In this document: one piece after another, positions 33,172 to 60,836 of the stretch | Position numbering within the stretch: position 1 is the stretch's first letter | How the letters are laid out: the number at the start of each line of letters is the position of its first letter | Source: Peribacillus frigoritolerans | GTDB lineage: Bacteria; Bacillota; Bacilli; Bacillales; DSM-1321 | Direction of reading: 5' to 3' | Length of the DNA stretch: 64,000 nt | NCBI RefSeq assembly: GCF_001636405.1 | Contig: NZ_KV440950.1 | Span: 4,951,977-5,015,976 of the forward strand | The notes under the pieces: model-generated | Told to the model about the DNA's origin: nothing | The model's database searches: none | What the model saw: the letters and a program-made list of their open reading frames with translations, nothing else | Position numbers and translations under genes: made by a program

Positions 33172-36075
33172 TTATTTCAACATGTACTTCATAAAGCTTT
33201 CAACATACCTTGAATCGATTTCCGGCATTTTCATTGATAGTAGTTCCATTTCCTTCTTGGTTTTTCCTTGCAGGATTTCCGACTCTTTTAATTTAGTTGA
33301 TTCATCTATTAACTGGGACAAAGCACTTAATGAATGAATCTCGTTAGATTGTGTCTTTTCTTTTAAAGATTGTAACCACTCTTCCAAATCCATATTGGAG
33401 TAAGGTATTTCATTCTTTTCGAAGAAGGAGGTCACGAATTCACTTGAAACTCTCTGATCATTGAACATATGATAGATCCCGAGCTTCTGATTCTCTTTCA
33501 ATCTTGATATTTTGTAAATAAACTCACTTACAAAATCGACTGGCATCAATTCAAAATGAATTTCCTCTTTAAATGGCAATATCCTTTGTTCAATAAATGA
33601 TTCAAAAACCTTGTACAACATATCCTTCTCGTTCCAAACCCCATTTGAATTAGATGAAATCCTGCCTAACCGGAAAATATCGATTGTCAGTCCGAGTTCC
33701 CTTGCTTGAAAAAGCAATTTCTCGGCAACCCATTTGGACTGGCTGTATCCGATCATTAAATCGGGGGAATAAACCAATTCGTCTTCCTCGTCCCATTTCC
33801 TTTCTCCGGTCAAGACAGAAAGCGTTGATGCATAATAAATGTTTTTCCGATTGCATGATGAAGCAAACTTAATGACTTCCACTACACCATCCACATTCGA
33901 TATTTTTGATTTGCTATACGGCTCGAAGAAATTCGTTTCAGCACCGACATGATACACATGAGAAACATCATTGCTTAATTTCTCATATGTCACATCATCC
34001 AGACCGAAATGATGTTTACTAAGATCCCCTTCAATGACAACGATTCGACTTACGAATTCATCCTGCCAAAGACCATATTTCATTAAAGTATCTTTCAATC
34101 TATTTCTCGAAGGAAATCTAACCAAACAATAGATTTTGACATCTTCCAATTCCAGTAATAATTTGTTTAATAGGTGTGCTCCCAAAAAACCTGTTCCACC
34201 TGTAATCATCATATTTTTTTCAATTTGAACGGGTTTAGCGGATATTTCCCTTATTTTCTCCATCAATTCTCGATCGAGCACGGAACCCTTCTCCATCACT
34301 GCTTCCATGCTGCAAGAATAATCGACTTCAAGTGCTTCAACGAATTTATTCACTGTATTATTTTCCAATAAGATTTGTAAAGTGGCTTCAGGAAGTACCG
34401 TTTCCTTCATTACATAGACCAGTTTGGTAGCTAAAATGGAATGGCCTCCATGTTCAAAGAAGTTGTCGTCCAATCCTAGACTTTGATTTCCTAATACATT
34501 TCTCCAAATCTCCAATACTTCTTTTTTCTTTCCAGTTTCCTGATTGGCTAAGGAAGTTTTATTTTGCCCGATCTCCATTTCCAATAATTTCTCTTTATCG
34601 ACTTTACCGTTGGCATTAAGCGGGAAATCATCCACTCTGACAAAAAAGTGGGGAATCATATATTTCGGCAATTCATTGTTCAGATAATCTTTAATATCCT
34701 TTTCAGCGTTTTCCGCTTTTTCATCTTCATGTTTGTAATAAGCGATCACATAATTTTCATCATTGATGTTTTTAACAGCAACGACTGAACTTTCAATCTT
34801 CATGTATTGATCAAGCTTGTCTTGAATTTCATTCAGTTCAATTCTAAAACCGCGAATTTTCACTTGACTGTCTTTCCGACCTTTATACAGGATCTCACCA
34901 TTTCGTAACCGGATGCCATGATCACCTGTTTTATACCACTTCGTCTGATTCAAATCATCCTTGATCAACGCTTGATCCGTTAATTGCGGCTGATTTAAAT
35001 AGCCTCTCATGACCCCTTGACCGCCAATGTAGATTTCGCCTATTTCCCCATCTGCTACCTCGACTAGTCCTTCAGATAGAATCTTGATTTCTACATTGCT
35101 CAATGGTTTTCCAATGGGAATAACATCTGCATCTTTTTCTTCGACCTCATGACATATGGCAAAAGTGGTGCATTCAGTTGGTCCATACCCATTAATCAAG
35201 GAGAAGTGACCGATTGTTTGCTTCAATCTCCTCACATGGGAAACCGAGATTTTATCTCCGCCAACCACAATTTTCTTTAATCCTTCAAAAATCATTGGAT
35301 CCTCATCTACCATTGCATTGAAAAGACCTGTCGTAAAAAAAGCTACATCCACCTTTCCAATCGATATCGCTTCTTTCCAATCATCAAAAGAAGTGAACTC
35401 ATTCGGCATCAGGAATAAAGTCGCTCCATTCAATAAAGCTCCCCATATCTCAAAGGTTGCGGCGTCAAAGCATGGGTTGGAAAATTGGGCCACTCTATTA
35501 TTTTCATTAATTTTTAGTATTTCAGAGTTCAATACTAAATTGACTACACTTTTATGCTCTATCATTACACCTTTTGGCTTTCCAGTCGTACCTGATGTAT
35601 AGATGACATATGCGAGACCATTCTCCGAGGAACGGTTAACGGGAATATGCCCGTCCCTGCTTAGTTCATTCATCTCAAATGGAATTGGTTCAATATCCAA
35701 TTCCCTTAGCTTCCCTTCTTGACCATTAAACGATAAGAAGAACTTCATATCCGTATCTGCAAGCATATATTCCAATCTTTTTAATGGGTAATTTTCGTCG
35801 ATTGGAACATAGCAACAGCCTGACTTTATTATGGCAAGCATCCCTATAATCAGTTCAATGGACCTTTTGCTTGGAATACCGATCATTGTTTCTTCCTGAA
35901 TCCCCAAATCAATGATCCTTTTGGCAAGATTATCTGAAAGAATGTCTAATTCTTTATAAGTAATTTGACGTTCATTTTCGCAAAGTGCCGCTTTTGATTG
36001 ATTATCTTCCACGATTTTTTTAAAAGCTTCAGTTATTGACATCAATTTATTCGTCGTCATCGATTTACTTATCAT
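33172..36075 (-). CDS. NRPS4: adenylation, carrier and terminal thioester-reductase domains
   Basis: 967 residues, order A-T-R. The A domain (1-500) has A-Y-V-I-Y-T-S-G-T-T-G-K-P-K-G and F-D-A-A-T-F-E-I; the specificity residues I extract are D-A-F-F-V-G-G-T-F-K, close to Val codes (Val most likely, Ile possible). The carrier motif G-G-H-S has its Ser at about 543. The R domain (about 620-960) has G-G-T-G-F-L-G (NADPH binding), S-T-L-S-V and Y-S-Q-S-K, so the chain leaves by reduction to an aldehyde or alcohol instead of by a thioesterase domain. The gene overlaps NRPS3 by 4 nt. Its A domain lacks a C domain, which is supplied by the C-terminus of NRPS3. Confidence 0.92.
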   Translation of the reverse strand: MISKSMTTNKLMSITEAFKKIVEDNQSKAALCENERQITYKELDILSDNLAKRIIDLGIQEETMIGIPSKRSIELIIGMLAIIKSGCCYVPIDENYPLKRLEYMLADTDMKFFLSFNGQEGKLRELDIEPIPFEMNELSRDGHIPVNRSSENGLAYVIYTSGTTGKPKGVMIEHKSVVNLVLNSEILKINENNRVAQFSNPCFDAATFEIWGALLNGATLFLMPNEFTSFDDWKEAISIGKVDVAFFTTGLFNAMVDEDPMIFEGLKKIVVGGDKISVSHVRRLKQTIGHFSLINGYGPTECTTFAICHEVEEKDADVIPIGKPLSNVEIKILSEGLVEVADGEIGEIYIGGQGVMRGYLNQPQLTDQALIKDDLNQTKWYKTGDHGIRLRNGEILYKGRKDSQVKIRGFRIELNEIQDKLDQYMKIESSVVAVKNINDENYVIAYYKHEDEKAENAEKDIKDYLNNELPKYMIPHFFVRVDDFPLNANGKVDKEKLLEMEIGQNKTSLANQETGKKKEVLEIWRNVLGNQSLGLDDNFFEHGGHSILATKLVYVMKETVLPEATLQILLENNTVNKFVEALEVDYSCSMEAVMEKGSVLDRELMEKIREISAKPVQIEKNMMITGGTGFLGAHLLNKLLLELEDVKIYCLVRFPSRNRLKDTLMKYGLWQDEFVSRIVVIEGDLSKHHFGLDDVTYEKLSNDVSHVYHVGAETNFFEPYSKSKISNVDGVVEVIKFASSCNRKNIYYASTLSVLTGERKWDEEDELVYSPDLMIGYSQSKWVAEKLLFQARELGLTIDIFRLGRISSNSNGVWNEKDMLYKVFESFIEQRILPFKEEIHFELMPVDFVSEFIYKISRLKENQKLGIYHMFNDQRVSSEFVTSFFEKNEIPYSNMDLEEWLQSLKEKTQSNEIHSLSALSQLIDESTKLKESEILQGKTKKEMELLSMKMPEIDSRYVESFMKYMLK

Positions 36076-39000
36076 CGGGCCCCAACTTTCAAGTGATTTA
36101 TTAATTTTTCAATAGATGGCAGTGTTTCATTTTCTGTTAGTTTTAAGAATATTTCCTGCATGGAATCCATAAAACGTAAAATTTCATTTTCGGAGAATTT
36201 ACTGTCTTTATAAATGATCTTATAATGCAGCTTGGTTTGCATTACAGCCGCAGAGAACGTAAGATCAAAATTGGTCGATTCACTTCCGACTGAATTTTCG
36301 ATCATGATTCGCGAATCCTCTGCCGATTCTGTGCTCGGATAATTTTCGAATACAAATATATGTTGGAACAATTCCTTATCCCATGGAATTTCAGCGTATC
36401 GCTTTATATCCGTAAGTGAACTGAACTCATACTCTCTCATTTGTAATTGCTTGTTTTGAATCGCAGTAAGATAGGATTGCAAATCATCTTCCCAATCGAT
36501 TTTCAAAGAGAATGGCAGAGTATTGATCAATAATCCTACAGCTTTTTCAATATGCGGAATGCTGAGGTTCCTTCCTGAGCTTGTCACCCCATAGCATACT
36601 GAGTCGCTCTCACTGAAGCACGATAGAACGATGCTCCAAACTCCTTGAACAACGGTATTGATCGTCTTTCTATGCTGCTTGGATAATTCTGTTAATCTTT
36701 CGGTAAGCTCTTCAGGTAGGCTATATTCAATAACTTTATCCGATGTAAAAGCTTCCTTATCCGTTTTCTTACCTACTAGTGCTTTTACTTGTTCAAAATC
36801 CCTCAATTCTTCATTCCAAAAAGCTGCTTCATCCTGTTTATTCATATTCCTGACATGATTCATGACTTGTTTATAGGCAATCTTATGTTCATCACTGTCT
36901 TTTACCAAATTGGATGAGTTTCGATAATTATCCAAAAAATGATTAATGACGATTTGCAGGCTCCAGCCATCCATTAAAGCATGATGATGTGTCCATATGA
37001 ATTTATAGCGATGATCCGATAGCTGGATCAAGGTGATGTTCATGAGCGGACCATTCTCTAAATCCATTTGTCTGTTTTTGCTATGCTCTAAAAGATTTTC
37101 TATCTTGGATGCCGATTCGTCCTCGCTAAACGTCGTTAGATCCACATGATTAAACACATAATAAATGTCATTAAGGATGATTTGGTAACGGTCCCCCAAT
37201 TGATTGCGCCTGAAAACGGATCTAAGAACGTCGTATTTTCTACAGGTTTCATTCCAGGCTTCTTCCAATTTGTCCAAGTCCAGATCACCTATTAAATCAA
37301 TGGATAGCTGTGAAATATATTCAGGACTTTGAGTTACTTCACTATGGAATAACATCCCTTCTTGAAGTGATGTCACTGGGTAAATCTCTTCAATGTTATT
37401 AAACTTATTAATGAAATGGGTAATCGTACTTCCATCGACTATTTTCTCAGCTTGAAAATCCGTTTCGACAATGGAGTCATTCAAATATGCGCTTCCACTT
37501 AAAATATTGTTTAAGTGTACTTCAACTTCTTTACATATCATTTGGTAGTTTTCATTGTTGCTATCGCCAATAATATTCAGCATGAGCCTATTGTTTACGA
37601 TGCTGGCGACAAAATTGAGCTTATATGGAAATGTATAGTTCAAATCGATATTGCTGCTATTGGTTTGTTCCATATCACCAGTGTTATTAAATTGACCTAG
37701 ATAGTTGTAACTCACAAGGCTGTCTGGATAGTTATGATTCCGAGTGGAAATATACTTTAGGATTCCAAAGTCAAACCCTTTGTTTGGCACACTTCTTAAT
37801 CTGTTTTTTGTATTTCTCAAGGTTGAGCCCAAAGACGGCATTCCTTTAATCCTTACTGGATAAATGGAGGTGAACCACCCTACTGTCCTTGATAGATCAA
37901 TATCATCTTCAATATCCTCTCTGCCATGACCTTCTAAATCGAGCCAAAATTCATCAATTCCCATTATATTGGAAACTGAATGGGCAATAACGGATAATAA
38001 AACCTCATCAATCGTCGTTTTATGTTTTCTTAAAGTGTTTTTAATGAGGTTTTGTGTTTGGTCCTCATCCACCTGTATTTTGTACATGTTTTCAAAATCA
38101 CATGTTTCTCCTAAGCTATGCGTCAGCGGAGAAACTGGAATATTCATTTCCTTTTCCCAATAATGAACGGCATCTTCCGGTAGGCCAGTGTTCTGATACT
38201 CGTTCAGTTTCTCGGACCATTGTTTATAAGAAGTCGTTTTTAAAGGCAGTGATGGTTCTTGTCCATTCTTTATCTGTTGATAGCATCTTTCGAAATGATC
38301 AAGAAGTATCCTCCACGAAACACCATCAACCACAAGGTGATGAATCACCCAAAAAATCCTTACGTCCTTTTGATCCCTGAATAGAAGGAACTTCATCATG
38401 GGGCCATTGTGTATGTTTAAACTTTGTTGGGCGTTTTCTTCCAGCTCCTTAATTACTTTCAGACTATTTTCATCTGTAAAACTGGAAACTTGATACTCAT
38501 GAAAACCGCATGCCATATCAGCATTTGAAATATTGCCAATATATGAATCACCATGTTTTTCAAATAATGTCCTTAATATGTCGTGGTGATCAATTAATTT
38601 CATGATGATTTGTTTATATTGTTCGGTCGCCAATGCATGATCCTTCATCAAAACGACTGACTGATTCCAATGATGGATATTGTCATGATTTTCATTAAAA
38701 AACCAAGATTGAATAGGCGTCAACGGTACATAACCTGATATTTTTTCTTGGACCACTTGTTTTAGTTTCAGATCATTTACAACATTCCCTAGCTCACGGA
38801 CCGTTTGGTATTCAAATAAATCTTTAGGCGTTATAAATAGATCTTTTTCTTTTGCAGCCGAGCATATTTGAATGCTGATGATTGAATCACCGCCACATTC
38901 AAAGAAGTTATCTTCCGGTCCTATAGCGGGATCGTTTAATACATCTCTCCATATTGTCAGAAGCTCTGTTTCAGTTTTGGACAGCTCTTGCACATCCGGC

Positions 39001-42000
39001 ACTTTTTTCTTCCTCTCATCCAACTGTTCCGTCCATTTCGGCAGGGATTTCCGATCAACTTTTCCATTCGGCGTCAAAGGGAATTTATCCAGTTGCATAA
39101 AATGAGCAGGAATCATGAAAGCAGGCAGTGTTTCTTTCAGTCTTCTTCTGATTGAATCCACCGAAACCTCATCATTCACCGTATAATAAGCAATTAGGCT
39201 TTTATTCTCAAATCCATCTTCCATTGCCGTTACATAACTATCTTTGATTTCTGCTAGTTTTCGTAATGAAACATTAACCTCCGATAGTTCAACACGGTAT
39301 CCTCTTATTTTCACCTGGTCGTCCGCTCTGCCTATATAAACTAATTCCCCAGCTTTGTTATGCTTAACTAAATCCCCGGTTCTGTATAATTTTTCAGCAG
39401 GATTGAATGGATTGGATATGAATCTTTCATTTGTCAGGCTCTCATTATTCAGATATCCCCTCGCTAACCCAATTCCTCCGACATAAAGTTCACCAACCGC
39501 TCCTGCCGGCACTAGTTTCCGGTTTTCATCCAACACAAGTGCAACTGTGTTAGTCAGTGGCTTCCCAATTGAAACAACGAATTCATCCGTAGCATCCTCA
39601 TTGGGGGGAAACATTTTAAAACTTGTACACACCGAATATTCAGTAGGCCCGTAGCCATTGAAAAACGATATATGCTTAAACTTCGAAACGAGCTCGACTG
39701 GACATTCAGAACCTGCAGATCCCAACACTTTAATCGTGCTCAATTCATTGATTGGCAGTTCCTTCAACACAGCAGGCGGTAAAATGATATGAGAAATTCC
39801 TTCACGCTTAATTTGTTCAACAAGTTTATTCATGTCAAATTGATTTTCTTTATCTACGCTTATATGCAGCTCGGCACCGAACAATAGTGTGCTGAAAATC
39901 TCTATGACGGATGAATCAAAATTAAACGTAGCGAATTGCAGCACTTTAGCTGAAGTATCTAAACACATCATTTTATTTTGGTTATGAACCAAGTTAATGA
40001 TTCCCCTATGTTCCAGCATGACTCCTTTTGGCCTGCCTGTCGTTCCAGAGGTATAAATGACATAGGCTAAGTCCCGCTGATCTGCAATGTGAAGATTCTC
40101 TGTCATTAACAAATCCGATTCATTTTCAATATTTTCAAAATATATTATTTTGGATGGGTCAATCAAACCATTCTTTCCGAGTTCTTTGTGACTCAAGCAA
40201 TAGGAAATGGACGAATCTTCAACCATGTAGCTTAATCGTTCATTAGGATAATGAGGATCCAATGGAACATACGCAGCACCTGCTTTAATTACTGCCAACA
40301 TCCCCGTCACCATATCAATTGATCGATTCACATAAATTCCGACTCTTTCTTCTTTAGAAATCCCTTTGCTTAGTAAATAGTGAGAAAGCCGATTGCTCTT
40401 ATCATTCAATTCGCGATATGTAATGGTTTTGGAACCATCAACAATGGCTATCTTATCAGGAAATCGCTCGACAACTTTATGGAAGGCTTGTGGGAGTGTG
40501 TCATTGATCCCCTCAAAGCGAATGGTTTCTCCCTGCCATTCTTCCAATAATAATTTCTCCTGCTGCTTACTCACGACGGATACCTTGTCAATGGATTGTT
40601 CAGGCTGATAAGTAATCTTCCTGATCCACTCCAGGAAATTTACAGCTAATGATTGAATGGTTTGTTCATTGAAGATCCCTGAATTATACTCGAAGGCGAA
40701 TAATAGCTTATCTTCATATTCTTCTGCAGCTAAACTCAAATCGAATTTTGCTGCCTTTGATTTTAATACTTCAGGCGTTATCTTTATGTATTCACTTTCC
40801 AATGCAGCTTTGGCATTATTTTGTAAAATGAAGACGGTTTGAAATAAAGAAGTGCTTGCTAAATTTCTTTCAGGGTTAATGACTTCAACGATTTTCTCCA
40901 ATGTCATTTGCTGATGATCATAGATGTCGATGATATGGCCTGTATTTCTTTGAAGTATCTCTTCAAATGTTTCTTCATGTCCCAGCTTTAATCTAAAGGG
41001 CAGTGTATTGACAAAATAACCTATCGATTTTTCTGTCCCTTCAATCATTCTATTCGCCAAAGGACTTCCAACGATGATATCGTTTTGACCTGTATATTTT
41101 GCCAGGAAAGACTGGTACATCGTTAGCAGTGTCATGAATAATGTCGAGTTTTTTTCCAGGGACATCCGCTTTAAACCCTGAAGCTCTTCCCTCGTTAGTT
41201 CCACTATAAAACTACTGCCATCGTTGCGATTTTCTTTTGAACGTATCTTATCTAAAGGAAGCTCCAATTTAGGCAATTCCCCAGCTAAGTTTGTTTCCCA
41301 AAATTGCGATTCTTCTTTCATGTTTTTTTCCAACCAGTTTTTCTGCTCTAATGCAAAATCCTTATATTGTTTAAAGTCTTTTCCAAGGATAAGTTCTTTT
41401 TCATTCACTTCACTGTCATAAAACGATAACCATTCATCTAAAAATATGCTCACTGACCATCCGTCAAAAACAAAATGGTGGAGATTCACAAATAAAACAA
41501 AATCCTTTGCACTCAATTTAACAAGTTTCGCTGTCAGGAGTGGACCTTTTTCAATTTCAAAGATTTCCGATTGGACATCGTCTTCAATTTGCAGCATACG
41601 AGTCTTTTGCTGTTCGGGCTTTAACGCAGAGAGATCGATTTCATCTATTTTTATGTACAAATCTTCCCTGATTTCCTGATAGCCTTTACCGGCTTTTTCA
41701 CGGACGGTCGTCCTCAAAATCTCATGTCTAGTAACGACATGATTTAAGGCTTTTTCCAGCATTGGAGTATCAACTGTTCCAGAAATTTTATATTTCTGAG
41801 GGATATTATAATTGGCTGTCTTACCGTTGAGTTTTTCGTTGAACCATAAAGCCTCTTGGTTACTGGATAAAACATGATGATTTTCTTGTTGCACTTCTAT
41901 GTACTCCATGTCATGATCTGAAATTTCATTAATGATGAAGTCCGTCAACGAATCGATTGTTGAATTTTGAAAAATATTTTTCAAAGTTAGAATTTGATTG

Positions 42001-43757
42001 TATTCTTTGTTTAATTTCGTTAATAATTTCATGGCTAAAATCGAGTGTCCGCCCATTTCAAAGAAATCGGCATCTTTATCGATTTGACTTGTTGATAAGA
42101 CTTCCAAAAATGTCTTTTCCACAAAAGATGATACGACCTGCGTTTGATTTCTTGGAGGTATACTCATTTCCGGAAAGATCTTATGATTTAGCATTTTCAA
42201 TGTAGGATTTTCAAACAAATCAGCTAATTTCATATTCGCATCAAGTCTTTTATTTATTTTAGACACCATTTTCATGGCTGTTATCGAATGCCCGCCCAAT
42301 TGAAAGAAATCATCATTAATATCGCTGTTCAAGAAAAACTCTTGCCAAATTTCTTTAAGTCCTTGATTAACGGATGTGGATGTAATCGAATGGGCATCCG
42401 TTGCTGCTTGATCGTCTATACTCACATTATTGTTTAGTTTTGAAAAGTCAATATCCACATATATTTCAGCAATTTGCTGAGCTTCAGTAATTTGATGGGC
42501 AATCTGCATGAAGGCTGATTGGATATCATATACTAGCGAACGCTGTAAGAAGCAGGTATTAAAGTACAATTTGCATGTAATCGTTTCTTTATTATCCTGG
42601 GCTTGTAACGATAACGGAAAGCTATGTGACTCTTTTCCTCCTTCAACCTCCCAGTTAATGCTAAAGCCTTCATCTTTCGCTTCCGGATAATTTTCATAAA
42701 CAAATAAAGTTTCGAAAATCGGATCTTCCTTCTTTAATTTCGTATGCCTTTTGATATCCACTAAAGAAATTTGGGAGTAATCCAGCATATTGTTCAATGT
42801 TTCCTGGAATCGTTTCAGTAAATCGGTAACGCTGTCTGTATCGTTTATTTCAGCTATCATAGGAATCGTATTAATGAGCATCCCAACGATTTCTTCCGAT
42901 TTGAATAAGTTATTCGACCTGCCAGAGCTAACGATTCCAAAGACGATTCGATTTTGATTGGACATTTCCTTTAGGACGATTGACCAAATTAACTGCAGCA
43001 ATACATTAAGCGTTACATGGTTTTTAGCGGCAAACTCTCTTAAAAGCTTACTTTGCGTTTTATTCAGCTCCCAGAAGAGATCATTGTCCTGCTGGTTTTC
43101 CTTCACATGTTTTACGACGGGAAATGTGATCGTCGGCTGTTCAATATCCTTTGCAAGCTCTTTCCAAAAACGATTTAAATCTTCCGCATCTGTTTTATTC
43201 ATATACCGGATAAAATCTCCATATTGCTTTGGCTTTTCAATAAGTCCTTTGGAGTCTTTACCTACAATTCGGCTGTAAATAACAAAGAGTTCATCGATGA
43301 CTATGCTGGTACTCCAGCCATCCAAAATTATATGGTGATGAGTCCAAATCAAGTTAAACTGATTTTCTTCAATTTTCACTAACTGGAGTTTCATCAAATT
43401 GGAGTTATTAACATCCATCTCCTGGGATTTGGAAGTCACTCTTTTAATTTCCATTAATTGTTCATGCTCACTCAACTCTGTCATATCGATCATTTCCGGT
43501 TGATAATCCATTGTATTGAAGACAACCTGAACATTATTTTCAATATTTTTAGAGATGACCTTCATTCTTAATGCTTCATGTCGTTCTACAACCTGACTCC
43601 ACGCCTCGAACAATGCATCCACTTCAAGAGCGCCCGTTATCCTGATTCGCATTTGAGAAATGTAAAGGTTCTCTGTTGAATTGTTCATTTCCAATTCATA
43701 AAGGATTCCTTCTTGAAGCGGAGTTAATGAGTAGATATTCTGAATAGATTTCTCCAA
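36072..43757 (-). CDS. NRPS3: C-T-T-C-A-T-E-C, module 5 without an A domain and with tandem carriers
   Basis: About 2561 residues from the TTG at 43757, which follows GGGAGGCGCAAAA; ATG at 43796 is an alternative with a weak site. Order: DCL-type C (H-H-H-I-I-L-D-G, about 143), two carrier domains (G-G-H-S at about 488 and 570), LCL-type C (H-H-F-V-F-D-G, about 763), A (F-D-S-S-V-I-E, about 1280; specificity read as D-S-I-I-G-A-G-V-C-K, unresolved), carrier (C-G-G-D-S, about 1622), E (H-H-L-V-V-D-G, about 1808) and DCL-type C (H-H-H-A-L-M-D-G, about 2261). No A domain stands between the first C and the first carrier. The final C condenses onto NRPS4. Confidence 0.95.
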   Translation of the reverse strand: MEKSIQNIYSLTPLQEGILYELEMNNSTENLYISQMRIRITGALEVDALFEAWSQVVERHEALRMKVISKNIENNVQVVFNTMDYQPEMIDMTELSEHEQLMEIKRVTSKSQEMDVNNSNLMKLQLVKIEENQFNLIWTHHHIILDGWSTSIVIDELFVIYSRIVGKDSKGLIEKPKQYGDFIRYMNKTDAEDLNRFWKELAKDIEQPTITFPVVKHVKENQQDNDLFWELNKTQSKLLREFAAKNHVTLNVLLQLIWSIVLKEMSNQNRIVFGIVSSGRSNNLFKSEEIVGMLINTIPMIAEINDTDSVTDLLKRFQETLNNMLDYSQISLVDIKRHTKLKKEDPIFETLFVYENYPEAKDEGFSINWEVEGGKESHSFPLSLQAQDNKETITCKLYFNTCFLQRSLVYDIQSAFMQIAHQITEAQQIAEIYVDIDFSKLNNNVSIDDQAATDAHSITSTSVNQGLKEIWQEFFLNSDINDDFFQLGGHSITAMKMVSKINKRLDANMKLADLFENPTLKMLNHKIFPEMSIPPRNQTQVVSSFVEKTFLEVLSTSQIDKDADFFEMGGHSILAMKLLTKLNKEYNQILTLKNIFQNSTIDSLTDFIINEISDHDMEYIEVQQENHHVLSSNQEALWFNEKLNGKTANYNIPQKYKISGTVDTPMLEKALNHVVTRHEILRTTVREKAGKGYQEIREDLYIKIDEIDLSALKPEQQKTRMLQIEDDVQSEIFEIEKGPLLTAKLVKLSAKDFVLFVNLHHFVFDGWSVSIFLDEWLSFYDSEVNEKELILGKDFKQYKDFALEQKNWLEKNMKEESQFWETNLAGELPKLELPLDKIRSKENRNDGSSFIVELTREELQGLKRMSLEKNSTLFMTLLTMYQSFLAKYTGQNDIIVGSPLANRMIEGTEKSIGYFVNTLPFRLKLGHEETFEEILQRNTGHIIDIYDHQQMTLEKIVEVINPERNLASTSLFQTVFILQNNAKAALESEYIKITPEVLKSKAAKFDLSLAAEEYEDKLLFAFEYNSGIFNEQTIQSLAVNFLEWIRKITYQPEQSIDKVSVVSKQQEKLLLEEWQGETIRFEGINDTLPQAFHKVVERFPDKIAIVDGSKTITYRELNDKSNRLSHYLLSKGISKEERVGIYVNRSIDMVTGMLAVIKAGAAYVPLDPHYPNERLSYMVEDSSISYCLSHKELGKNGLIDPSKIIYFENIENESDLLMTENLHIADQRDLAYVIYTSGTTGRPKGVMLEHRGIINLVHNQNKMMCLDTSAKVLQFATFNFDSSVIEIFSTLLFGAELHISVDKENQFDMNKLVEQIKREGISHIILPPAVLKELPINELSTIKVLGSAGSECPVELVSKFKHISFFNGYGPTEYSVCTSFKMFPPNEDATDEFVVSIGKPLTNTVALVLDENRKLVPAGAVGELYVGGIGLARGYLNNESLTNERFISNPFNPAEKLYRTGDLVKHNKAGELVYIGRADDQVKIRGYRVELSEVNVSLRKLAEIKDSYVTAMEDGFENKSLIAYYTVNDEVSVDSIRRRLKETLPAFMIPAHFMQLDKFPLTPNGKVDRKSLPKWTEQLDERKKKVPDVQELSKTETELLTIWRDVLNDPAIGPEDNFFECGGDSIISIQICSAAKEKDLFITPKDLFEYQTVRELGNVVNDLKLKQVVQEKISGYVPLTPIQSWFFNENHDNIHHWNQSVVLMKDHALATEQYKQIIMKLIDHHDILRTLFEKHGDSYIGNISNADMACGFHEYQVSSFTDENSLKVIKELEENAQQSLNIHNGPMMKFLLFRDQKDVRIFWVIHHLVVDGVSWRILLDHFERCYQQIKNGQEPSLPLKTTSYKQWSEKLNEYQNTGLPEDAVHYWEKEMNIPVSPLTHSLGETCDFENMYKIQVDEDQTQNLIKNTLRKHKTTIDEVLLSVIAHSVSNIMGIDEFWLDLEGHGREDIEDDIDLSRTVGWFTSIYPVRIKGMPSLGSTLRNTKNRLRSVPNKGFDFGILKYISTRNHNYPDSLVSYNYLGQFNNTGDMEQTNSSNIDLNYTFPYKLNFVASIVNNRLMLNIIGDSNNENYQMICKEVEVHLNNILSGSAYLNDSIVETDFQAEKIVDGSTITHFINKFNNIEEIYPVTSLQEGMLFHSEVTQSPEYISQLSIDLIGDLDLDKLEEAWNETCRKYDVLRSVFRRNQLGDRYQIILNDIYYVFNHVDLTTFSEDESASKIENLLEHSKNRQMDLENGPLMNITLIQLSDHRYKFIWTHHHALMDGWSLQIVINHFLDNYRNSSNLVKDSDEHKIAYKQVMNHVRNMNKQDEAAFWNEELRDFEQVKALVGKKTDKEAFTSDKVIEYSLPEELTERLTELSKQHRKTINTVVQGVWSIVLSCFSESDSVCYGVTSSGRNLSIPHIEKAVGLLINTLPFSLKIDWEDDLQSYLTAIQNKQLQMREYEFSSLTDIKRYAEIPWDKELFQHIFVFENYPSTESAEDSRIMIENSVGSESTNFDLTFSAAVMQTKLHYKIIYKDSKFSENEILRFMDSMQEIFLKLTENETLPSIEKLINHLKVGAR

Positions 43758-43836
43758 TTTTGCGCCTCCCGATTCCATTATCTTCGTGTCTTCCATACCC
43801 GCTGACCACAATCAATCTATTAAACCAGTAATCACC

Positions 43837-46800
43837 TTATTTGTTAGAATTCAATATATGAAACAAATCTTCCTCAGTGAGCATCGCATCCGGGAAATCA
43901 CTTTCTATTAAAGAACCTTGGTCAAATTCAGTTCCCTTGATTTCCATGACAACATCACCAATAGCTTCCATTATTAGATTCATCTTTTCTTCGGCTAATT
44001 TTGAAATTATTTTTATGGTTAGTTTTCCAGCCTGGATAAATGACAGGAAATGCAATTTTGGTTTATTTTCAAACTCACCAAAGTCCCTGCTATTGGATGA
44101 TTCAAATTGAGAATCCAATCTTCCTAAGTAATTAAAAGTAACGTAGACATCCGGCTCCTGAATGACCCCAGGTCGTAAATACTTGATGACGCCATAATCA
44201 AAACCTTTATTCGGGATTTCCCTTATAGCATTCTTCGTGTTTTTTAAAGTATCGTCAAACGTCCCATCTGAATGCAGCAATATTGGATACATCGCAGTAA
44301 ACCAGCCAACGGTCCTAGTAACATCGATTGTTTCATCCACCATTTCCCTGCCATGCCCTTCTACTTCCAACCAGAAGTTCTTCACTTCAAAAGATTGTTT
44401 CAAACCCTTTGCGATTAATGACAACAATACTTCTTCCACAGTCGCTTTTGATTGCCTTGATAATTCCTGGATCAAGAATTCAGTTTCTTCCTCACTGAAT
44501 GGTTTCTCCATCGTTCTTTCTTCTTTAGCTATAAAGTCTTCCGCTATCTTAAAATCCGTTATTTCACTTTTTGTTTTTTGTTCCCAATAACGGAGTGTTT
44601 CAGGGTCCATCAACGATTCATTGTATTTCTTCAAGAAGTTTGACCAGTCTTTGAATGATGACGTTTTATGAGCAAGCCTTCCTGTTTGATTGTTTAATGC
44701 CAGATCATGGAGAGTATTGAAATCCTCAAGTAAGATCCTCCAGGAAACGGCATCAATCAATAAATGGTGGATTACCCAAAAGAAGCGATACTTGTTCGGC
44801 TGTTCTTTTAAAACAAGCATTTTCATGATCGGTCCATTACTTATGTCCAATGAACCTTGAGCCTTACTTTCCCATTCATCTCTCACCCTTATTCGCGTTT
44901 CCTCATCCAAATGATGTATATCCTTATAGACTAACTCCCATGTTTTGTGTTCGGAGTCTATATTCCCGATATATTTATCGTCACGTTTTTCAAATAGGGT
45001 TAACAATCCATCATGATGTTCCACGATATGTGATAGAATTTTTTCAATGTCCTCCATTTGAGCACAGGAATCTTTACTAAAAACAATGGACTGGTTCCAA
45101 TGATTGATGGAAGCAGTATGCTCCGCAAAGAACCATTCTTGGATGGGGGTCAGTTCCACATTCCCTCTAGTGGCTATAGGTTGAATCATGACCTTGTTTT
45201 CAGTTTTCGCTATCGCTGCCAGCTCTGCTACCGTTTGATTTTCAAAAATTGATTTTGGACTGATGATTATACTTTCCTGCCTTGCTAGTGAACATATTTG
45301 AATGCTCTGAATGGAATCGCCGCCAAGTTCAAAAAAGTTATCCCGGATACTGATGTCATCCAACCCTAAGACACTTTTGAATATTTGAAGAAGCGCTTTC
45401 TGATTGAACGTCACAGGTTCTTCCAATGTATTGCTTCTGGTTACGGGTACCGGAAGAAGTGCTGAATCAATTTTCCCATTTGCATTTAACGGAAATTTGT
45501 CCACTTGCATAAAGAATGAAGGAATCATGTAACTTGGTAATCTCTCTTTTAAAAATGCTTTTAAGTGATCGTAATCAACTTGTTGTTTGGATGTGAAATA
45601 AGCGATTATTTGTTTATTTAAGTTTGGCTGATCCTGAACCTTAATGAATGAGTCACTTACTTGCGGATACGCATTGAGGTTGACCGAAATTTCATCCACT
45701 TCGACACGGAAACCTCTGATTTTCACTTGATTATCTTTACGCCCCAGAAAAATCAACTCACCATCGCTCGTGAATTTTGCAAGGTCACCGCTGCGATACA
45801 AACGCTTTCCAGCTTTAAAAGGATGTTCAATGAACTTTTCTTTTGTTAAATCAACATTATTCACATAACCAACAGCTAACCCTTCACCACCAATATATAT
45901 TTCCCCTGCAGCACCTATTGGTACAAGTCTTTGCTCAGGACTTAATAAATAGACGTCAGTATTCAGGATGGGTTTGCCTATTGAGACTTTATTATTGGTA
46001 GTCTCATTGTTTTCATACGCTTTAAACATTTCAAACGTGGTCCATACTGAATATTCCGTTGGACCGTAGGCATTATAAAAATTTATATTTTGATAGCGAT
46101 CCAGCAAGGCTATTGGACATTCAGACCCGGCTGAACCGACGAATTTCACATGGGAGCCCTCTATATTGAGCTCTTGCAATACTGCGGGCGGCAATACTAG
46201 ATGTGTTAATTTTTCACTTTTGATTTGATTTTCCAATGCGTATAAATCAAACATTTCCTCCTTATTATTCCCGATATGCAGCTCTGCACCATTTAATAAG
46301 CTTCCAAAAATCTCATATATAGAAGCGTCAAAATTAAAAGTGGCAAATTGTAATACCTTTGAGGTCTCATCAAGTTGTAAGTACTTGTTTTGGCTTATTA
46401 TTAAATTCACTACGCCTCTATGGGATAGCATGACGCCTTTTGGTTTTCCTGTAGTTCCCGAAGTATAGATTATGTAAGCTAGATCGGAAGGTGCAATAGA
46501 TTCGATACAGCACTTGGTAGCCACGTAATGTACGGATTCAAGATCAATCACCTTAGCTATTTTTTTAATGGCGGGAGCCTCAACTTGATTCGTAATGCAT
46601 ATATCCATTTTCGAATCATTGACGATATATTCCAATCTTTCAGCTGGCAGCATAGGATCAAGCGGAACGTATGCACACCCGGCTTTAATGATTCCCAACA
46701 TGCCGATTACCATATCAATCGATCTGTTTACATGCAGGCCTACCTTATTAGAACCGTTTACGGTATGATTTCTGACCAATTTCGCAATCACATTCGATCT

Positions 46801-48555
46801 TTGATCTAATTCCGAATAAGTAATGGCCTGACCATTATCAGCAACGGCTAATTTGTTTGAATGCTTCTTGACGATTCTTTTGAATATGGAGGTGATCGTC
46901 TCATTTTGATGAGCATCCGAAACCTCACCTTGCCACTCAAATAACAAATGATTCATTTGATTGTCATCTAAATATTCCAAATGACAGATAGGTATATCCG
47001 CATTTCTGCAAATTTGGAATAACCATTTTTCGAAACTCAGCATGAATCTTTCAATTGTTTCCCGCCTGAAAAGTTCATCGGAATACTCGAATTCCAGGAT
47101 TAAGTCATGAGAACCCTTCACCTTTATAGTCAGGTCATAATTTGAATAAGGAATTTCGAATTTGTCTTGTTCAAGAGTGAAGAATGCGTTGCTAAAGTTC
47201 CCGTCAAAGCTTTCTTCCATTGCCAAAGCTGTTTGGAACAATGGGGAATGACTGAGATCCCTGTCTGGATTAATGATTTCAACGATTTTTTCAAATGGAA
47301 AAGCCTGATGTTCCAATACATCCAAAATCACTTTACGATTCCGGTTCAATATTTCATGAAATGATTCTGATGGATCAACGGTCAGCTTCAATGGCAACGT
47401 ATTGACAAAGCATCCAACTGTCCGGGCAAATTCTTCTTGGCCACGGTTTGCCACGGTACTCCCGACAATGATTTGATTCTTCCCGGTATACCGACTTAAA
47501 AACACTTGATAGGCGGTCATCATAAAAGCATATAAAGTCGTACCATTCTCCTTTAAAACCCTGTCAATCCATGCACGAAGTTCATTCGTTATGGCCATTT
47601 CCAGTCTTTCGCCTGAGTAAGAAGGTGATTTTGGACGTTGAAAGTCAAATGGAAGTTCTAATGCTTCTTCCTCTTGATCTAAATAACTTTCCCAAAACCT
47701 CCTTTGGCTTGGCGTGCTTTCCTCGACCCACTCCTTATGCCAGACAGCATAATCTAAATATTGCATGTCCAGAGGGGGAATATCCCCAACCCTGCCTGTT
47801 TGAATTCTTTCATAAATCTCCAATAACTCTTCGAAAAAGGTGACAAACGATACTCCATCAAAAATGATATGGTGAAAATTGCATACCACATAATGTTTTT
47901 CTTCATCAACTCGAAATAGTTTCATATTAAATAAATGATCATTTTCCAGGTCGAAGCATCTTTCCATTTCTTCAGTAAGATGGGAGGTGACCATTAAATC
48001 GCTGACTTCTGGATCTAATCCCCTGCAGTCTTCATAGGCAATCATGTTTCGGCTTTTTTTTGATAAGAATTGAAGGATTTGATGTTCTTCCCCTTTGAAA
48101 TTAGTTCGCAAAGTTTCATGGCGTTCAATCATGAAATCTAATGCCTGTTGCAGGTCATCAATGTCCACAACGCCATTTAAAATGAATTTAAATGGCATAT
48201 TATAGAGCATTTTCCTTTCATCCAGGCTGTTGAACAGATACATTCGATCTTGATTATGAGAAAGCATTCCTTCACTTTTCCCACGTTTATAAGGCTTATT
48301 TACCTCGTCTTCCCTCATGTCGAGGAGCATGTCCAGAAAACTTGCCAGTTTTTCTATATTCCATTGACTTGAAATGATTTCCGGTGTTAATTGAATACCA
48401 AACTCCTGTTTTATCGAAGACAAAAACTCATCTTTTTTTTCATTTGTGCTTAGTGATTCATTCATGTCCTCTACTAGTGATAGTTTTAAAGGTTCAATAA
48501 CAATTGAAATCAAGTTTAATAGCCTATTTTCCGTTTCACTGATCATCCTGTTCAT
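43837..48555 (-). CDS. NRPS2: C-A-T-E module 4 (D-residue)
   Basis: About 1572 residues from the ATG at 48555 (GAGGTG 7 nt upstream; the longer frame starts at a TTG without a site). Residues 1-95 look like a worn carrier/linker region without a Ser motif. Then C (H-H-I-I-F-D-G, about 231, LCL type), A (F-D-A-S-I-Y-E, about 741; specificity read as D-A-Y-V-G-A-A-V-W-K, not assigned), carrier (L-G-G-D-S, about 1077) and an epimerase with H-H-L-L-I-D-A-V-S-W (about 1264; the Gly of DG is Ala, but the catalytic His pair and Asp are kept). Product: a D-configured residue of unknown side chain. Confidence 0.95.
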   Translation of the reverse strand: MNRMISETENRLLNLISIVIEPLKLSLVEDMNESLSTNEKKDEFLSSIKQEFGIQLTPEIISSQWNIEKLASFLDMLLDMREDEVNKPYKRGKSEGMLSHNQDRMYLFNSLDERKMLYNMPFKFILNGVVDIDDLQQALDFMIERHETLRTNFKGEEHQILQFLSKKSRNMIAYEDCRGLDPEVSDLMVTSHLTEEMERCFDLENDHLFNMKLFRVDEEKHYVVCNFHHIIFDGVSFVTFFEELLEIYERIQTGRVGDIPPLDMQYLDYAVWHKEWVEESTPSQRRFWESYLDQEEEALELPFDFQRPKSPSYSGERLEMAITNELRAWIDRVLKENGTTLYAFMMTAYQVFLSRYTGKNQIIVGSTVANRGQEEFARTVGCFVNTLPLKLTVDPSESFHEILNRNRKVILDVLEHQAFPFEKIVEIINPDRDLSHSPLFQTALAMEESFDGNFSNAFFTLEQDKFEIPYSNYDLTIKVKGSHDLILEFEYSDELFRRETIERFMLSFEKWLFQICRNADIPICHLEYLDDNQMNHLLFEWQGEVSDAHQNETITSIFKRIVKKHSNKLAVADNGQAITYSELDQRSNVIAKLVRNHTVNGSNKVGLHVNRSIDMVIGMLGIIKAGCAYVPLDPMLPAERLEYIVNDSKMDICITNQVEAPAIKKIAKVIDLESVHYVATKCCIESIAPSDLAYIIYTSGTTGKPKGVMLSHRGVVNLIISQNKYLQLDETSKVLQFATFNFDASIYEIFGSLLNGAELHIGNNKEEMFDLYALENQIKSEKLTHLVLPPAVLQELNIEGSHVKFVGSAGSECPIALLDRYQNINFYNAYGPTEYSVWTTFEMFKAYENNETTNNKVSIGKPILNTDVYLLSPEQRLVPIGAAGEIYIGGEGLAVGYVNNVDLTKEKFIEHPFKAGKRLYRSGDLAKFTSDGELIFLGRKDNQVKIRGFRVEVDEISVNLNAYPQVSDSFIKVQDQPNLNKQIIAYFTSKQQVDYDHLKAFLKERLPSYMIPSFFMQVDKFPLNANGKIDSALLPVPVTRSNTLEEPVTFNQKALLQIFKSVLGLDDISIRDNFFELGGDSIQSIQICSLARQESIIISPKSIFENQTVAELAAIAKTENKVMIQPIATRGNVELTPIQEWFFAEHTASINHWNQSIVFSKDSCAQMEDIEKILSHIVEHHDGLLTLFEKRDDKYIGNIDSEHKTWELVYKDIHHLDEETRIRVRDEWESKAQGSLDISNGPIMKMLVLKEQPNKYRFFWVIHHLLIDAVSWRILLEDFNTLHDLALNNQTGRLAHKTSSFKDWSNFLKKYNESLMDPETLRYWEQKTKSEITDFKIAEDFIAKEERTMEKPFSEEETEFLIQELSRQSKATVEEVLLSLIAKGLKQSFEVKNFWLEVEGHGREMVDETIDVTRTVGWFTAMYPILLHSDGTFDDTLKNTKNAIREIPNKGFDYGVIKYLRPGVIQEPDVYVTFNYLGRLDSQFESSNSRDFGEFENKPKLHFLSFIQAGKLTIKIISKLAEEKMNLIMEAIGDVVMEIKGTEFDQGSLIESDFPDAMLTEEDLFHILNSNK

Positions 48556-48581
48556 AGAAAAACACCTCAATTCTTTTCCAT

Positions 48582-48848
48582 TCAACTTAACTTATGCATA
48601 TCGTCCAATTGTTTGATGAGTACAGATAGTTCCTTGATGGTGGATTGTTCGAACATCACCTTGATTGGTAATCTCACTCCCAGGTTATTCTTCACCATTT
48701 GAATAAATTGCATCGCTAAAAGAGAATTCCCCCCTAAGTCAAAGAAGTTGGAATCTGTATCTATTGTCTCTTGTTCTAAAATTTCTTTCCAAAATCCAAT
48801 AAGTTTTTCCTCAATTAACCTTTCCTTCACCGCAATTGTTGTCTCCAT
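48582..48848 (-). CDS. Free-standing peptidyl-carrier protein (module 3 carrier)
   Basis: An 88-residue carrier domain with the phosphopantetheine serine in F-F-D-L-G-G-N-S-L-L-A-M-Q (Ser about 41). It lies between the C-terminal C domain of NRPS1 and the N-terminal C domain of NRPS2, exactly where a module-3 A-T pair should be. It starts 10 nt after NRPS1 and ends 26 nt before NRPS2, so it is certainly in the operon. No dedicated A domain accompanies it. It most likely receives its amino acid in trans. Confidence 0.93.
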   Translation of the reverse strand: METTIAVKERLIEEKLIGFWKEILEQETIDTDSNFFDLGGNSLLAMQFIQMVKNNLGVRLPIKVMFEQSTIKELSVLIKQLDDMHKLS

Positions 48849-48858
48849 ATATTTCCCC

Positions 48859-51800
48859 TCATTTCACTTTTGATTTTTCCAGCATTTCACTTAAGATTTG
48901 ATTAAATATAGAAAGTACGGATGACCTTAACTTTGGATTGACCGCTGCCTCATTAAATTTAATTTGAACACTTGAACCAGGGGTGATGATGATGACGATT
49001 GGATAATGGGTCGTTTCCCGTCCTTCTTTCAAACTAACATTGATTTCATCATTATTAGCTAGTTTCATCGGATAGTTTTCAAAAGCATATAATGATTCAA
49101 ATAGTTGGTTTTCCAAATTAGCCCACTCATAAATCTCTGATAAAGGTGTATTCTCATAGGCACTTAATTCCAAAAATTCATTTTGAACCTCATCCAGTAT
49201 TTCCATGTAGCTCTTTTCGTGGCTGATATGCTTGATGAACGGCACAGTGTTGATAAATGGACCAACCATTGCCTCAATATTTTGGATAGGAATATTCCTG
49301 CCGGATGTCACTACGCCGCAGCATACATTTTCCGTACCTTTTATTTCTTTCAAAGTGGCTAGCCAAATGGTTAGAAAGAAAGTATTCATGGTAATCTTGT
49401 ATTCCTGACAGAATCGTTGAATGGAATCACTTAATTCCTCATCCAATACTTTCAAATAGCTATTCTCAATGTACCCCTCGCCTTCTTGCACTCCCATTAA
49501 ACTGGATCCGGAATTCCGGGTACCTTCCAATTTCCCTGCCCAATAGTCCCGCAGTTCCTTATTACTTGTATAATCTTTCATATATTCAACATACTTTTTA
49601 AATGAAGGACTCACGGATGATGATGGTGTTATTGAATGATAAGCAGCAAAAATGTCATTAATCACCATCGAGTAACTCCAGCCATCCATAATAATATGAT
49701 GGAATGTCCATATTAATTGGTATTGATTTTCCGCAAGCTTAACGATCATGAAGCGATTCAGCTTATTATTCTCGATATCTATGATCTTATATTGTTCTGC
49801 TAACAACTTTTCCAACTTCTCTTGATGATTGATCATTTCTTCATATTCAATCTCGGTATCCATGGAACTCATTAAAAGTTGGTAGAATACCCCTTTTCTG
49901 CTTGAATATAATTTGGTTTTTAAAATGTCATGTTTCCCTGCAGTTGTCACAATGGCATTGGTTAATTTATCGACGTCCAGGAAACCTTTAATATCAAAAA
50001 TGAGCTGTACTTTATACTGGCTGCTTTCACTATCAAACAAGCTATGGTACAACATCCCTTTTTGCAAAGCCGTCAATTCATAAATATCAATAATGCCTGT
50101 TTCGTTGTGCAATAGTTGGTTAAGTTCCTCTTCGGGCATATCCACCAATGGAAAGTCTTCCGGACGGTACATCTGTTTTCCCCTTGTTTCTTCTTCCAAT
50201 GTCCGTAACAATTCCGGCATATTGTGTTGAATATATTGCTCAAAATCTTCTCTTACGAAATGTCTGTTATAGTTTATTTTTATGGTTTGCTCCTCATTCA
50301 CTACAAGCAATTCGATATCGACTTCATGTTCGGTATAGGAATTATGTTGAATATCTTGTTCACTAAAAAAGGTGACCTCTTTTGCAGCCCATTCATTGTT
50401 TTGGTGAAATCTACCTAGATTATTGAAACTGATGATCGGCCTATTTTGTTTCATATATGTCTCGCCGCATAATTCGGTTATGATCCCATACTCAATCCCT
50501 TTATTAGGCAGGGTCCTTAATTTTTTCTTTGTACCTTGAATCGTGTTCGAAATCGATTCTTTATTTTCTATATAGACCGGGCACATGGTAGTAAACCAGC
50601 CTACTGTCCTGGATAGATCGACACCTGCAAATAACTCTTCGCGACCATGTCCCTCCAAAGTAAAATGAATATCTTTTTTATTAAAATATTTCCCTATTAG
50701 CGCTGCGAAAATGGATAAGTATATTTCATCGATAGATGCTTTATACGTTTTTGTCATATCATTATAGATTTTGCTTGTAATCTCTTTATTCAGTTTCATT
50801 TCAAATGATTTTCCATCGTAAACATTTCCTGTTTTGACCAGGGCGTTTTCATATACCGTTTCATGTTCATTCAGCCAGTACTCTTTAATGCCTAAAGGAA
50901 TGCTATTTTTATATTCATTGAGGTTATTCGCCCATTCCTTATATGATGTCGTTTTATTATCCAGTTTTAGTTCCTGATTGTTTATATCCTGAATATATAG
51001 CCGGTCAAAATCTTCGATCAAGATTCTCCAGGAAACCCCATCAACAAGTAAATGATGAATGATCCAAATGATTACATGCTCGTTTTGCCCAGTATTGATA
51101 CATACTATTTTCATTAGTGGTCCGTTTGAAATGTTGATGCCTTGTTGTGCACCGGTCCCGAGTCTAGCTATTTCCCGTTCCTGTTGGTCCTTATTCAGGT
51201 TTGATAGATTTACGTAATTCAAAGTCCAATTTTCAGACGGGCCGATTTGCTTTTCCACCTGCGAAAATGATTCTTCTCTATTGAACCTTAATCTGAGCCC
51301 ATCATGATGTCTGACGATATGGGCCATGATTCTTTGCAACCGTTTCTCATTCAATTGCGGGTAGCCCTTTAACGTTACAGATTGATTCCAATGATTATAA
51401 TTATTTATTTGTTGAGTGAAAAACCAACTTTGAATAGGTGTAAATGGTGCCTTTCCAAAAACATCTGACTGATTTATCGTTACATCGCCCGTCAATTCCA
51501 CAACCTTTGCCAGCTCTTCGATACTTTGTTTTTCAAAGATGTTTTTTGAAGTGATGAGAAGATTTTCTTTCTTGGCAAGTGAACAAATTTGAATGCTTAG
51601 GATGGAGTCTCCTCCACATTCGAAAAAGTTATCAAAGATGGTTATTTCCTGATTATTCAGTACCTCTTTCCATATCTTTAACAATTTTTGTTCCGTTCCA
51701 TTCATGACACTTTTACTGTTAGTGCCTTCCGGGTTCGTTTTTGTATCCGGCAAGCTCTTAGCATCCACTTTGCCGTTAACGGTTAGCGGAAAGGACTCCA

Positions 51801-54800
51801 TTTTAATGAAATAAGAAGGAATCATATAATGTGGAAGATGATTCTTCATATAATCCCGGATATAATTTTCTTCAAGGTCATTGTCGGAGATATAATAGGC
51901 CATGATGAATTTCTTCGATTTAGATTCATCTTTTATCGCTATGAAGCAATCCTTTATACCAGGGCATTTATTTAGAACTGCACTGACCTCCCCAAGTTCG
52001 ATACGATATCCGCGTATTTTCACTTGGTCATCAGCCCTGCCTGCAAAGAGTAGATTTCCACCCTCCGCATACTTAACCAAATCTCCAGTTTTATATAGTT
52101 TCCTTGAGGGATTGAACGGATTTTGAATGAAGCTTTCATCGTTTTTCCCCGGATTATTTATATATCCCCTTGCAATGCCTTTCCCGCCGATATACAGCTC
52201 ACCTATTTGACCTTTAGGAGCAGGCTTCATCCTGGAATTGAACACGTATGCTTCTGCATTTAAGATTGGCTTTCCGATCGGAATCACTTGATCATCACTT
52301 GGAAGTACCTTATATGCTGTTGCAACGACAGTGCCCTCCGTTGGACCATAATTATTATATAAATCAAAGCTCAAACTATCGGGTATCGTTTTTAAACGAT
52401 CTCCCCCTGTCAAAATGGCTCTGATTGATTCTGGAAATTTCATATCGTTAATAAATAATTGCTCGAGCAGCCCCGTTGAAAAAAACGCGAGTGTGACCTT
52501 CTCCTTTTCCATCTTCTCCGAAAGGATTTCTACATCCAATAAATCATAGTAATCCAGTATCAGGAGTTTATTCCCATTCGTCAGATAAGGGAATATCTCC
52601 CAAACGGAAGCGTCAAAAGATGTATTCGAAACCAGTACTGCTGCATCCTTTCCATCTACTGAATAATAATTGATATGCCAATTACAGAGGTTGGCCAACC
52701 CTCCATGTTCAATCATGACCCCTTTAGGTTTTCCCGTTGTTCCTGAAGTGTAGATGATATAGGCCAGATCACTTTCCGATATCTTTGTTGAATCGAATAC
52801 TGTGCATTCAATTTCTGGTTCTTTTAGTATGTCTTCGATACATAAAAGTTTTCCTTCATCACCGGGATACTTTGGAAGTCCTTCTTCATTACTTAAACAA
52901 TATGTGATTTGAGAATCCTCAATCATATGTTTCAACCGTGACACTGGCTGTGAAGGGTCCAAAGGCACATATGCCGCCCCAACTTTCATAATGGCTAAAA
53001 TGGCCGTAACCATATTGATCGATCGATCCATAAAAATCCCAATTCTATCCTCTACACCTACATGATTTAGGAATAAGCGTTGTGCCACCTGATTTGCCCG
53101 GGCATTTAACTCGCTATACGTCACCTGATCATCACCATGAACAATGGCAACATCATTGAAATTTGTACTCACTTTATTCTCAAACCTGGTTATTACATCT
53201 TCAAAACGATGACCTTCCACTTCTAGAGTTACATTGCCTGTCCCCATTTCGATTAATGATCGCAACTGTGCAGGCTCTAAGTAGGTAATGTCCTTTATCC
53301 GCTTGCTTTCCTTGGTTGTAATCTCTAACAGCCAATGCTGAAAATTACTAGCCATTCTTTGAATCGTCGTTTTATTGAATAATGCTTTGTTATATTCAAA
53401 CGAAATGAGTAATTCATCCTCATCCATTTCTTCTGCCTGAACAACCAAATCAAATTTAGCTTTAAAGGTATTGATTTTTTTCGGTTTTAACTTGAAATTC
53501 CTATATGCCAGCTTTTCTTTTTGGTTATTTTGCAGGACGAATACTGTATCGAACAATGGAGTATTTTCCATGGTTCTTTCTGCCGATAAATATTTCAAAA
53601 TCTCCTTAGTAGGTAAATTTTGATGGTCAAAAACACCTGCAATATTTTTTATGTTTTTTCGCAAAATCCCTTCAAATGAATCTTCCTGGGATACATGTAA
53701 TTTAAAGGGCAAGGTGTTGACGAAATATCCTATCAATTGTTCAGTATCCACATGGTTTCTCTTCGCCAAAGGACTGCCCACGACAACTTCCTCTTCATCA
53801 AAGTAAACCGATAAAAAGGTTTGATAGGCGGTAAGTAAACTCATGAACAAAGTCGATTTCGTTTTTTTATGAAGACTTTCCAGGTTGTCTTGAATTTCTT
53901 TAGGTAACAAAAAGCTGATAATATCGGACGTGCTTTTACCTTCTCCGGTTTTTTGATGATCATATTGTAAAAAAGACTTTTGCCGTAATGCCGTTATTTC
54001 ATTACTCCAGAACTCATTATCCTTACCTGTTACATAATTTGGTGAGTTTTTTTGCCATAAAGCATAATCTCCATATTGGATTGATTGGTTATCTCTATCA
54101 TTTCGGTCGCCATTCTCGATTTCCTCATAAATGGCAAACCATTCATTGATCAATAATGGAATCGACCAACCATCAAAAATAATATGGTGGATGTTACATA
54201 ATAATTGATATTCACTTTCATTCCTCTTCACTAACGTAATTGATAGGAGGGGACCATTTACTAAATCAAATTGCCGTTCCGTTTCTTCCTTCACAAAGTG
54301 ATTCATTTTTTCTTCCTGCATGTCTAAAGGAAGATCCGAAACATCGAAATAATTAATATCATGATGAATCGACTCATCGAAAACCAAGATGCCCATTCCA
54401 GCTTCTTCCCTAATGACACTTTTTAAGATTTGATGTTTATTGCTTAGCTTATCTAACGATAATTCCAGGTTTCCTTCATTCACTTCACCTGCTATTTCAT
54501 ACGAAAAAACGATGTTATATAATGATTTGTCTACATTGGTTTGATGAATGAACCACAAATTTTCTTGCTCATATGTTAAAGGATATGTATTTCTGGCATT
54601 GATATGGATAGGTGTATAATCTTGCTTTCCCTCTTCTTTTTGACGAGCTTCTATGACTTCGGATAATTTCATAATCGTATCGTTTTCCAATAAAACGGAA
54701 GGAGCAATTTCAATATGAAATTGATTTTTAATATTGACAATCAATCTCATTATCGATAATGAGTTCATTCCACTTTCAAGTAGCGACTGATTATTTTTTA

Positions 54801-60787: not shown

Positions 60788-60836
60788 AGTTATTATCCTC
60801 CCATCACTTCATGATTAAAACATTTCCATCCTCAAC

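Follow-up and report, generated by a model that had tools for sequence, protein, structure and literature searches.

The window, a stretch of 64,000 nucleotides of Peribacillus frigoritolerans, carries on its minus strand, from 56397 to 33172, an NRPS line of seven modules with five adenylation (A) domains, as read from translations and Pfam matches. The line is encoded by five minus-strand genes, for KorA, the free carrier T3, KorB, KorC and KorD (Table 1). Over its length Pfam returns 5 AMP-binding, 8 PP-binding and 9 Condensation matches, the latter accounting for six C and three E domains, which were distinguished by position and tree; the E domains follow directly after T2, T4 and T6. T3 starts with an ATG of its own, preceded by a stretch rich in purines, and KorB starts either at the TTG at 48585 or at the ATG at 48555. 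The predicted terminal reductase of KorD scores 272.3 bits against TIGR01746, for which the cut-off is 213.35.

Table 1 Features of the synthetase line and its accessory genes, with coordinates in the window
Feature	Coordinates	Strand	Basis
kfp, phosphopantetheinyl transferase, 711 bp, 236 aa	57057..57767	-	Pfam
KorA: A1(Thr)-T1-C2-A2(Leu)-T2-E2-C3	48859..56397	-	Translation, Pfam, codes read from alignments
A2 (DAWFLGNVV, leucine code), proposed to load T2 as well as T3 beyond the end of the gene	51730..53214	-	Code; function as related in PMC9640594
C3, after E2, with no A domain behind	48862..50085	-	Translation, Pfam, tree
T3, free 88-aa carrier; A-less module 3	48582..48848	-	PP-binding, 59.1 bits
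KorB: Tx-C4-A4-T4-E4; Phe4 by position	43837..48585	-	Translation, Pfam
Tx, carrier-like domain starting KorB; Asn in the carrier-serine column	48301..48555	-	Profile comparison, predicted model, alignment
KorC: C5-T5a-T5b-C6-A6-T6-E6-C7	36072..43811	-	Translation, Pfam
C5, after E4, with no A domain behind; A-less module 5	42402..43748	-	Translation, Pfam, tree
T5a, first of the tandem carriers	42156..42389	-	Translation, alignment
T5b, second of the tandem carriers	41901..42134	-	Translation, Pfam, alignment
KorD: A7 (DAFFVGGTF)-T7-thioester reductase; A7 proposed loader of T5a, T5b and T7	33172..36075	-	Pfam, code; function as related in PMC9640594
korTE, type II thioesterase, 732 bp, 243 aa	32420..33151	-	Pfam

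The first-pass annotation of this DNA had described two modules devoid of an A domain, module 3, in which the C domain ending the first synthetase is followed by a free carrier, and module 5, in which the first C domain of the third one is followed by two carriers. Translations and Pfam confirm both: C3 and T3 have no A domain between them, and neither do C5 and T5a. The C-domain types that it had assigned (DCL after each E domain, LCL at C4 and C6) hold as well. Indeed, C2, C4 and C6 form one clade in the tree (support 1.0), and C3, C5 and C7, each standing behind an E domain, fall outside this clade, with a support of just 0.32 for a grouping of their own. Identity among C3, C5 and C7 is 27-28%, as compared with 17-24% to C2, C4 and C6.

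Several other genes of the minus strand lie near the line. Between kfp and korA, a 219-aa protein with no Pfam match (56407-57066) might be the counterpart of the hypothetical gene in the published koranimine cluster. Upstream of kfp, two ABC ATPases, an ABC-2 permease and a 530-aa protein with no Pfam match (58504-62527) are possible export genes. A protein of the acyl-CoA:6-aminopenicillanate acyltransferase family (Pfam) is encoded at 24704-25768.

Conservation of the layout among relatives

Eleven clusters were compared, that of the window and ten others, two of which come from other genera: the Priestia aryabhattai B8W22 record (G271) and Halalkalibacter alkalisediminis (G421, L005). The aligned pieces of KorA-D from these two clusters are 59-73% identical to those of the window. 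T3 is a separate open reading frame in all 11 clusters and is fused to KorA in none, and C5 passes into T5a too closely for an A domain to fit between them in 11/11. The layout with two A-less modules is stable over the three genera covered.

A match to KorD at E <= 1e-200 was found in 9 of 36 genomes in the genus set, counting the window's own, and in 5 of 397 in the order set: the own genome again, three further members of the genus and G271. In the class set, at E <= 1e-180, the own genome is the only one of 398 with a match. Twenty-five plasmid records match KorD, all below 60% identity. Some copies of the cluster are damaged: korA and korC of G271 (L021, L022) contain stops or frame breaks, with the start of korA on another contig, and korA, korB, korC and korD are all frame-broken in one other genome (G007).

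A carrier-like domain opening KorB

KorB begins with a domain of about 85 residues, Tx, which receives no Pfam call. Its profile matches that of the pooled active carriers with a probability of 94.4% (90.0% in global mode), while comparisons with single carrier types are weak, the best reaching 38.5% (T1) and those with T5a and T5b staying below 1%. As a control, the pooled carrier profile was set against 123 segments of KorA-D. Fifteen of these overlap listed carriers; among the other 108, the two covering Tx gave 92.5 and 54.6%, and the next one 4.0%. The predicted model of Tx (mean pLDDT 82, pTM 0.68, from 10 sequences) is all helix in a carrier-like order. Foldseek found no match to it in the PDB at E 0.001, the best being at 0.013; nevertheless, 38 of the 50 listed PDB titles name a carrier protein, and 9 of the remaining 12 are small chains of respiratory complexes, which we take to be acyl carrier subunits. 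Moreover, the model gives a TM-score of 0.76/0.83 to the peptidyl carrier of 4mrt.

In the column of the carrier serine, the 10 aligned Tx sequences (the frame-broken G007 was left out) have Asn in eight cases, Val in one and Tyr in one. The Tx of the window has serines two and four residues earlier, neither of which is retained in G271 and G421. The GG ahead of the serine position is also missing. Since it has neither a serine at the aligned column nor the GG, Tx looks like a carrier fold that would be unable to take the cofactor. Tx is less conserved than its neighbours, with 50-52% identity in G271 and 38-39% in G421. None of 82 pattern matches for relatives of Tx on viral contigs was confirmed, and a literature search returned no paper on serine-less carriers, which is no proof of absence.

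Tx occupies the position ahead of C4 that would belong to a donor carrier. It might have been kept as a working docking domain that brings T3 to KorB, being the decayed partner of T3 in parallel to the live pair T5a-T5b, an idea that we put forward tentatively and consider rather doubtful. Because the single-type comparisons are weak, pairing Tx with T3 is a matter of position alone; for the same reason an assignment of Tx to one carrier type was dropped. Tx is an apparent pseudo-carrier at the very place where the free carrier must meet the next module.

Proposed loading of the A-less modules in koranimine synthesis

The genes korA-D occur together with kfp and korTE in the order published for koranimine, and the traits of that system are found: five A domains for seven modules, A-less modules 3 and 5, the tandem carriers of KorC and a predicted terminal reductase that would release the aldehyde. 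We identify the line as the koranimine synthetase (korA-D, kfp, korTE) of a Peribacillus, with loading in trans by A2 and A7 within the line, at a probability of about 0.92.

The codes of the A domains were read from the alignments of the 11 clusters, at nine positions each; the Stachelhaus scheme has ten, the tenth being Lys. A1 reads DFWNIGMVH and A2 reads DAWFLGNVV in 10 of the 11 clusters, the aligned A1 and A2 pieces of G007 stopping before the last three code positions. The A7 code, DAFFVGGTF in 10/11 and DAYFVGGTF in G421, is presumably Val-like. A4 has DAYVVSAVW in nine clusters, with the variants DAYVASAVW and DAYVISAVW, and A6 has DSIILSGVC in nine and DSIILSAVC in two; Phe is given to both by position alone. 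As predicted from sequence, the codes would fit koranimine for Thr (A1), Leu (A2) and a Val-like residue (A7). DFWNIGMVH is printed for a predicted Thr domain in PMC4169593 and DAWFLGNVV for predicted Leu domains in PMC7524897, and both also appear in PMC12283262, the first under Thr and the second under Leu/Ile/Val. The available text of PMC12283262 holds no match for the codes of A4, A6 and A7, and that of A7 was absent from the literature searched.

The koranimine cluster is known from Bacillus sp. NK2003 and Peribacillus (PMC9640594); in addition, koranimine-related clusters are described in 50 of 51 P. frigoritolerans genomes (PMC11678259) and kor genes in two B. simplex strains (PMC4585168). 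According to PMC9640594, which relates the work of Evans et al. 2011, five A domains serve seven residues, and the Leu A domain of KorA installs both leucines, Leu2 and Leu3. The same source has the Val A domain of KorD charge both tandem carriers of KorC and supply Val5 and Val7, and has the peptide released reductively as an aldehyde, which closes to an imine; the product, of 804 m/z and seven residues, is reported there in two strains.

In the window, A2 of KorA would provide leucine to two carriers, T2 of its own module and the free T3. A7 of KorD, the last A domain, would supply valine to T7 and, reaching back along the line, to T5a/T5b, the tandem carriers of KorC. With A2 and A7 loading them in trans, C3 and C5 would be provided with loaded acceptor carriers in spite of the A-less modules. 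We infer that the window's strain shares the loading scheme and the product of the other koranimine strains. Kinship among the carriers is not aligned with the donors: T3 scores higher against T5a/T5b than against T2, and T5a and T5b are each other's closest carriers, rather than T2 or T7. As the carrier tree places T3 elsewhere than the pairwise scores do, kinship was dropped as a sign of the donor and nothing was drawn from it.

Skipping of modules 3 and 5, which would then stand idle while a pentapeptide is made, had been considered by the first-pass annotation. It would account for the missing A domains, and T5a and T5b are indeed conserved less well than the majority of the line's carriers: identity in the other two genera is 57 and 58% for T5a, 60 and 44% for T5b, and 56 and 53% for T1, all of them below T2, T4, T6 and T7 (67-82%). 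However, C3 and C5 of the window retain HHxxxDG, and its T3, T5a and T5b retain GGxS. Furthermore, the conservation of C3 (61-62%), C5 (63-65%) and T3 (67-74%) in G271 and G421 is similar to that of their neighbours, C2 and C4 being at 61-65%, and koranimine is reported with seven residues in two producers (PMC9640594). Skipping is extremely unlikely. The same annotation had proposed, as one option, an A domain outside the window as the loader of both sites, and a genome search for stand-alone A domains as the check, and 18 of the 23 AMP-binding match rows in the genome do lie outside the line. Yet only the five rows belonging to this line pass the cut-off for amino-acid adenylation (TIGR01733, 317.4 bits), the next best row reaching 237.9 bits, and loading is assigned to KorA and KorD in PMC9640594. 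Loading of T3 and T5a/T5b by such an outside domain is very improbable. Nine PP-binding matches were found in the genome at E <= 0.1, eight of which are the carriers of this line.

Donors other than the published ones might also be envisaged within the line. A6, for example, is the sole A domain that shares a protein with T5a/T5b and could load them, but Val5 fits the A7 code, which we take to be Val-like, and does not suit an A domain whose place in the line is that of Phe6. KorD is, moreover, the protein named by PMC9640594, and we give such a change of donor very little credit. As for an assembly fault or a recent deletion, the former evoked by the first-pass annotation together with an A domain inserted in related strains, the frame-broken copies in relatives could be cited in its favour, with nothing comparable for the window itself. 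KorA and T3 adjoin, as do C5 and T5a, in 11/11 clusters, two of them from other genera; because the ten other clusters share this A-less layout, the gap is not an assembly fault, and the chance of either event is practically negligible. Taken together, the loading assigned to the related KorA and KorD (PMC9640594) and the codes that would fit it support loading in trans within the line rather than a skipping of modules, an A domain outside the line or a faulty assembly, in agreement with a shared A domain of the line, the other option that had been raised. Two A-less modules in one line were rightly called unusual, but they are not unexplained: this oddity is already known as koranimine biosynthesis. 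With the window, this known case of loading in trans gains one more copy, and an intact one.

Comparison with known systems

A shared A domain is also found in the yersiniabactin synthetase. Together with the synthetases of syringomycin, andrimid and WS9326A, it belongs to the systems in which A domains are described to act in trans (PMC7539972; for syringomycin also PMC8949500); those of syringomycin, andrimid and WS9326A differ from the present line in that the donors are separate A or A-T proteins (PMC7539972, PMC8949500). In capreomycin and viomycin biosynthesis, the A-less module of CmnI/VioI likewise receives its residue in trans, from an A domain that belongs to a different module, but it is one A-less module among five and the product is another; loading was shown there by protein mass spectrometry (PMC12400406). 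For thalassospiramide, A domains were similarly proposed to load the carrier of another module, although that line is a hybrid NRPS/PKS and the loading is a proposal (PMC5577590).

The cluster of NK2003, as described in PMC9640594, shares with the window korA-D, kfp and korTE, five A domains for seven residues, the tandem carriers of KorC and reductive release, predicted in the window, as well as one leucine and Val5 with no A domain of their own. Its korTE has the same size (732 bp, 243 aa). The korA of NK2003 is given as 7815 bp (PMC9640594), to be compared with 7816 bp here from the ATG of KorA to the stop of T3 (48582-56397); being one base off, it would seem to include T3, which suggests either a T3 fusion in NK2003 or a sequencing difference there.

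Strain BE93 of P. frigoritolerans resembles the window in the sizes of KorD (967 aa), of the free carrier (88 aa) and of Kfp (236 aa), but its published cluster counts 11 ORFs and six A domains (PMC9640594). Its korA is listed in the same source as ORFs of 1333, 1171 and 88 aa. When the KorA of the window is cut at these ORF sizes, the cut falls in A2, at 52374-52399 of the window, and the AMP-binding hits become 2 + 1, three for two A domains, the last spanning just profile positions 315-383 of 384. Modelled in this way on the KorA of the window, the extra leucine A domain of BE93 would most simply be an artefact, A2 being split by an ORF break, which offers a simple cause for the additional A domain published for that strain.
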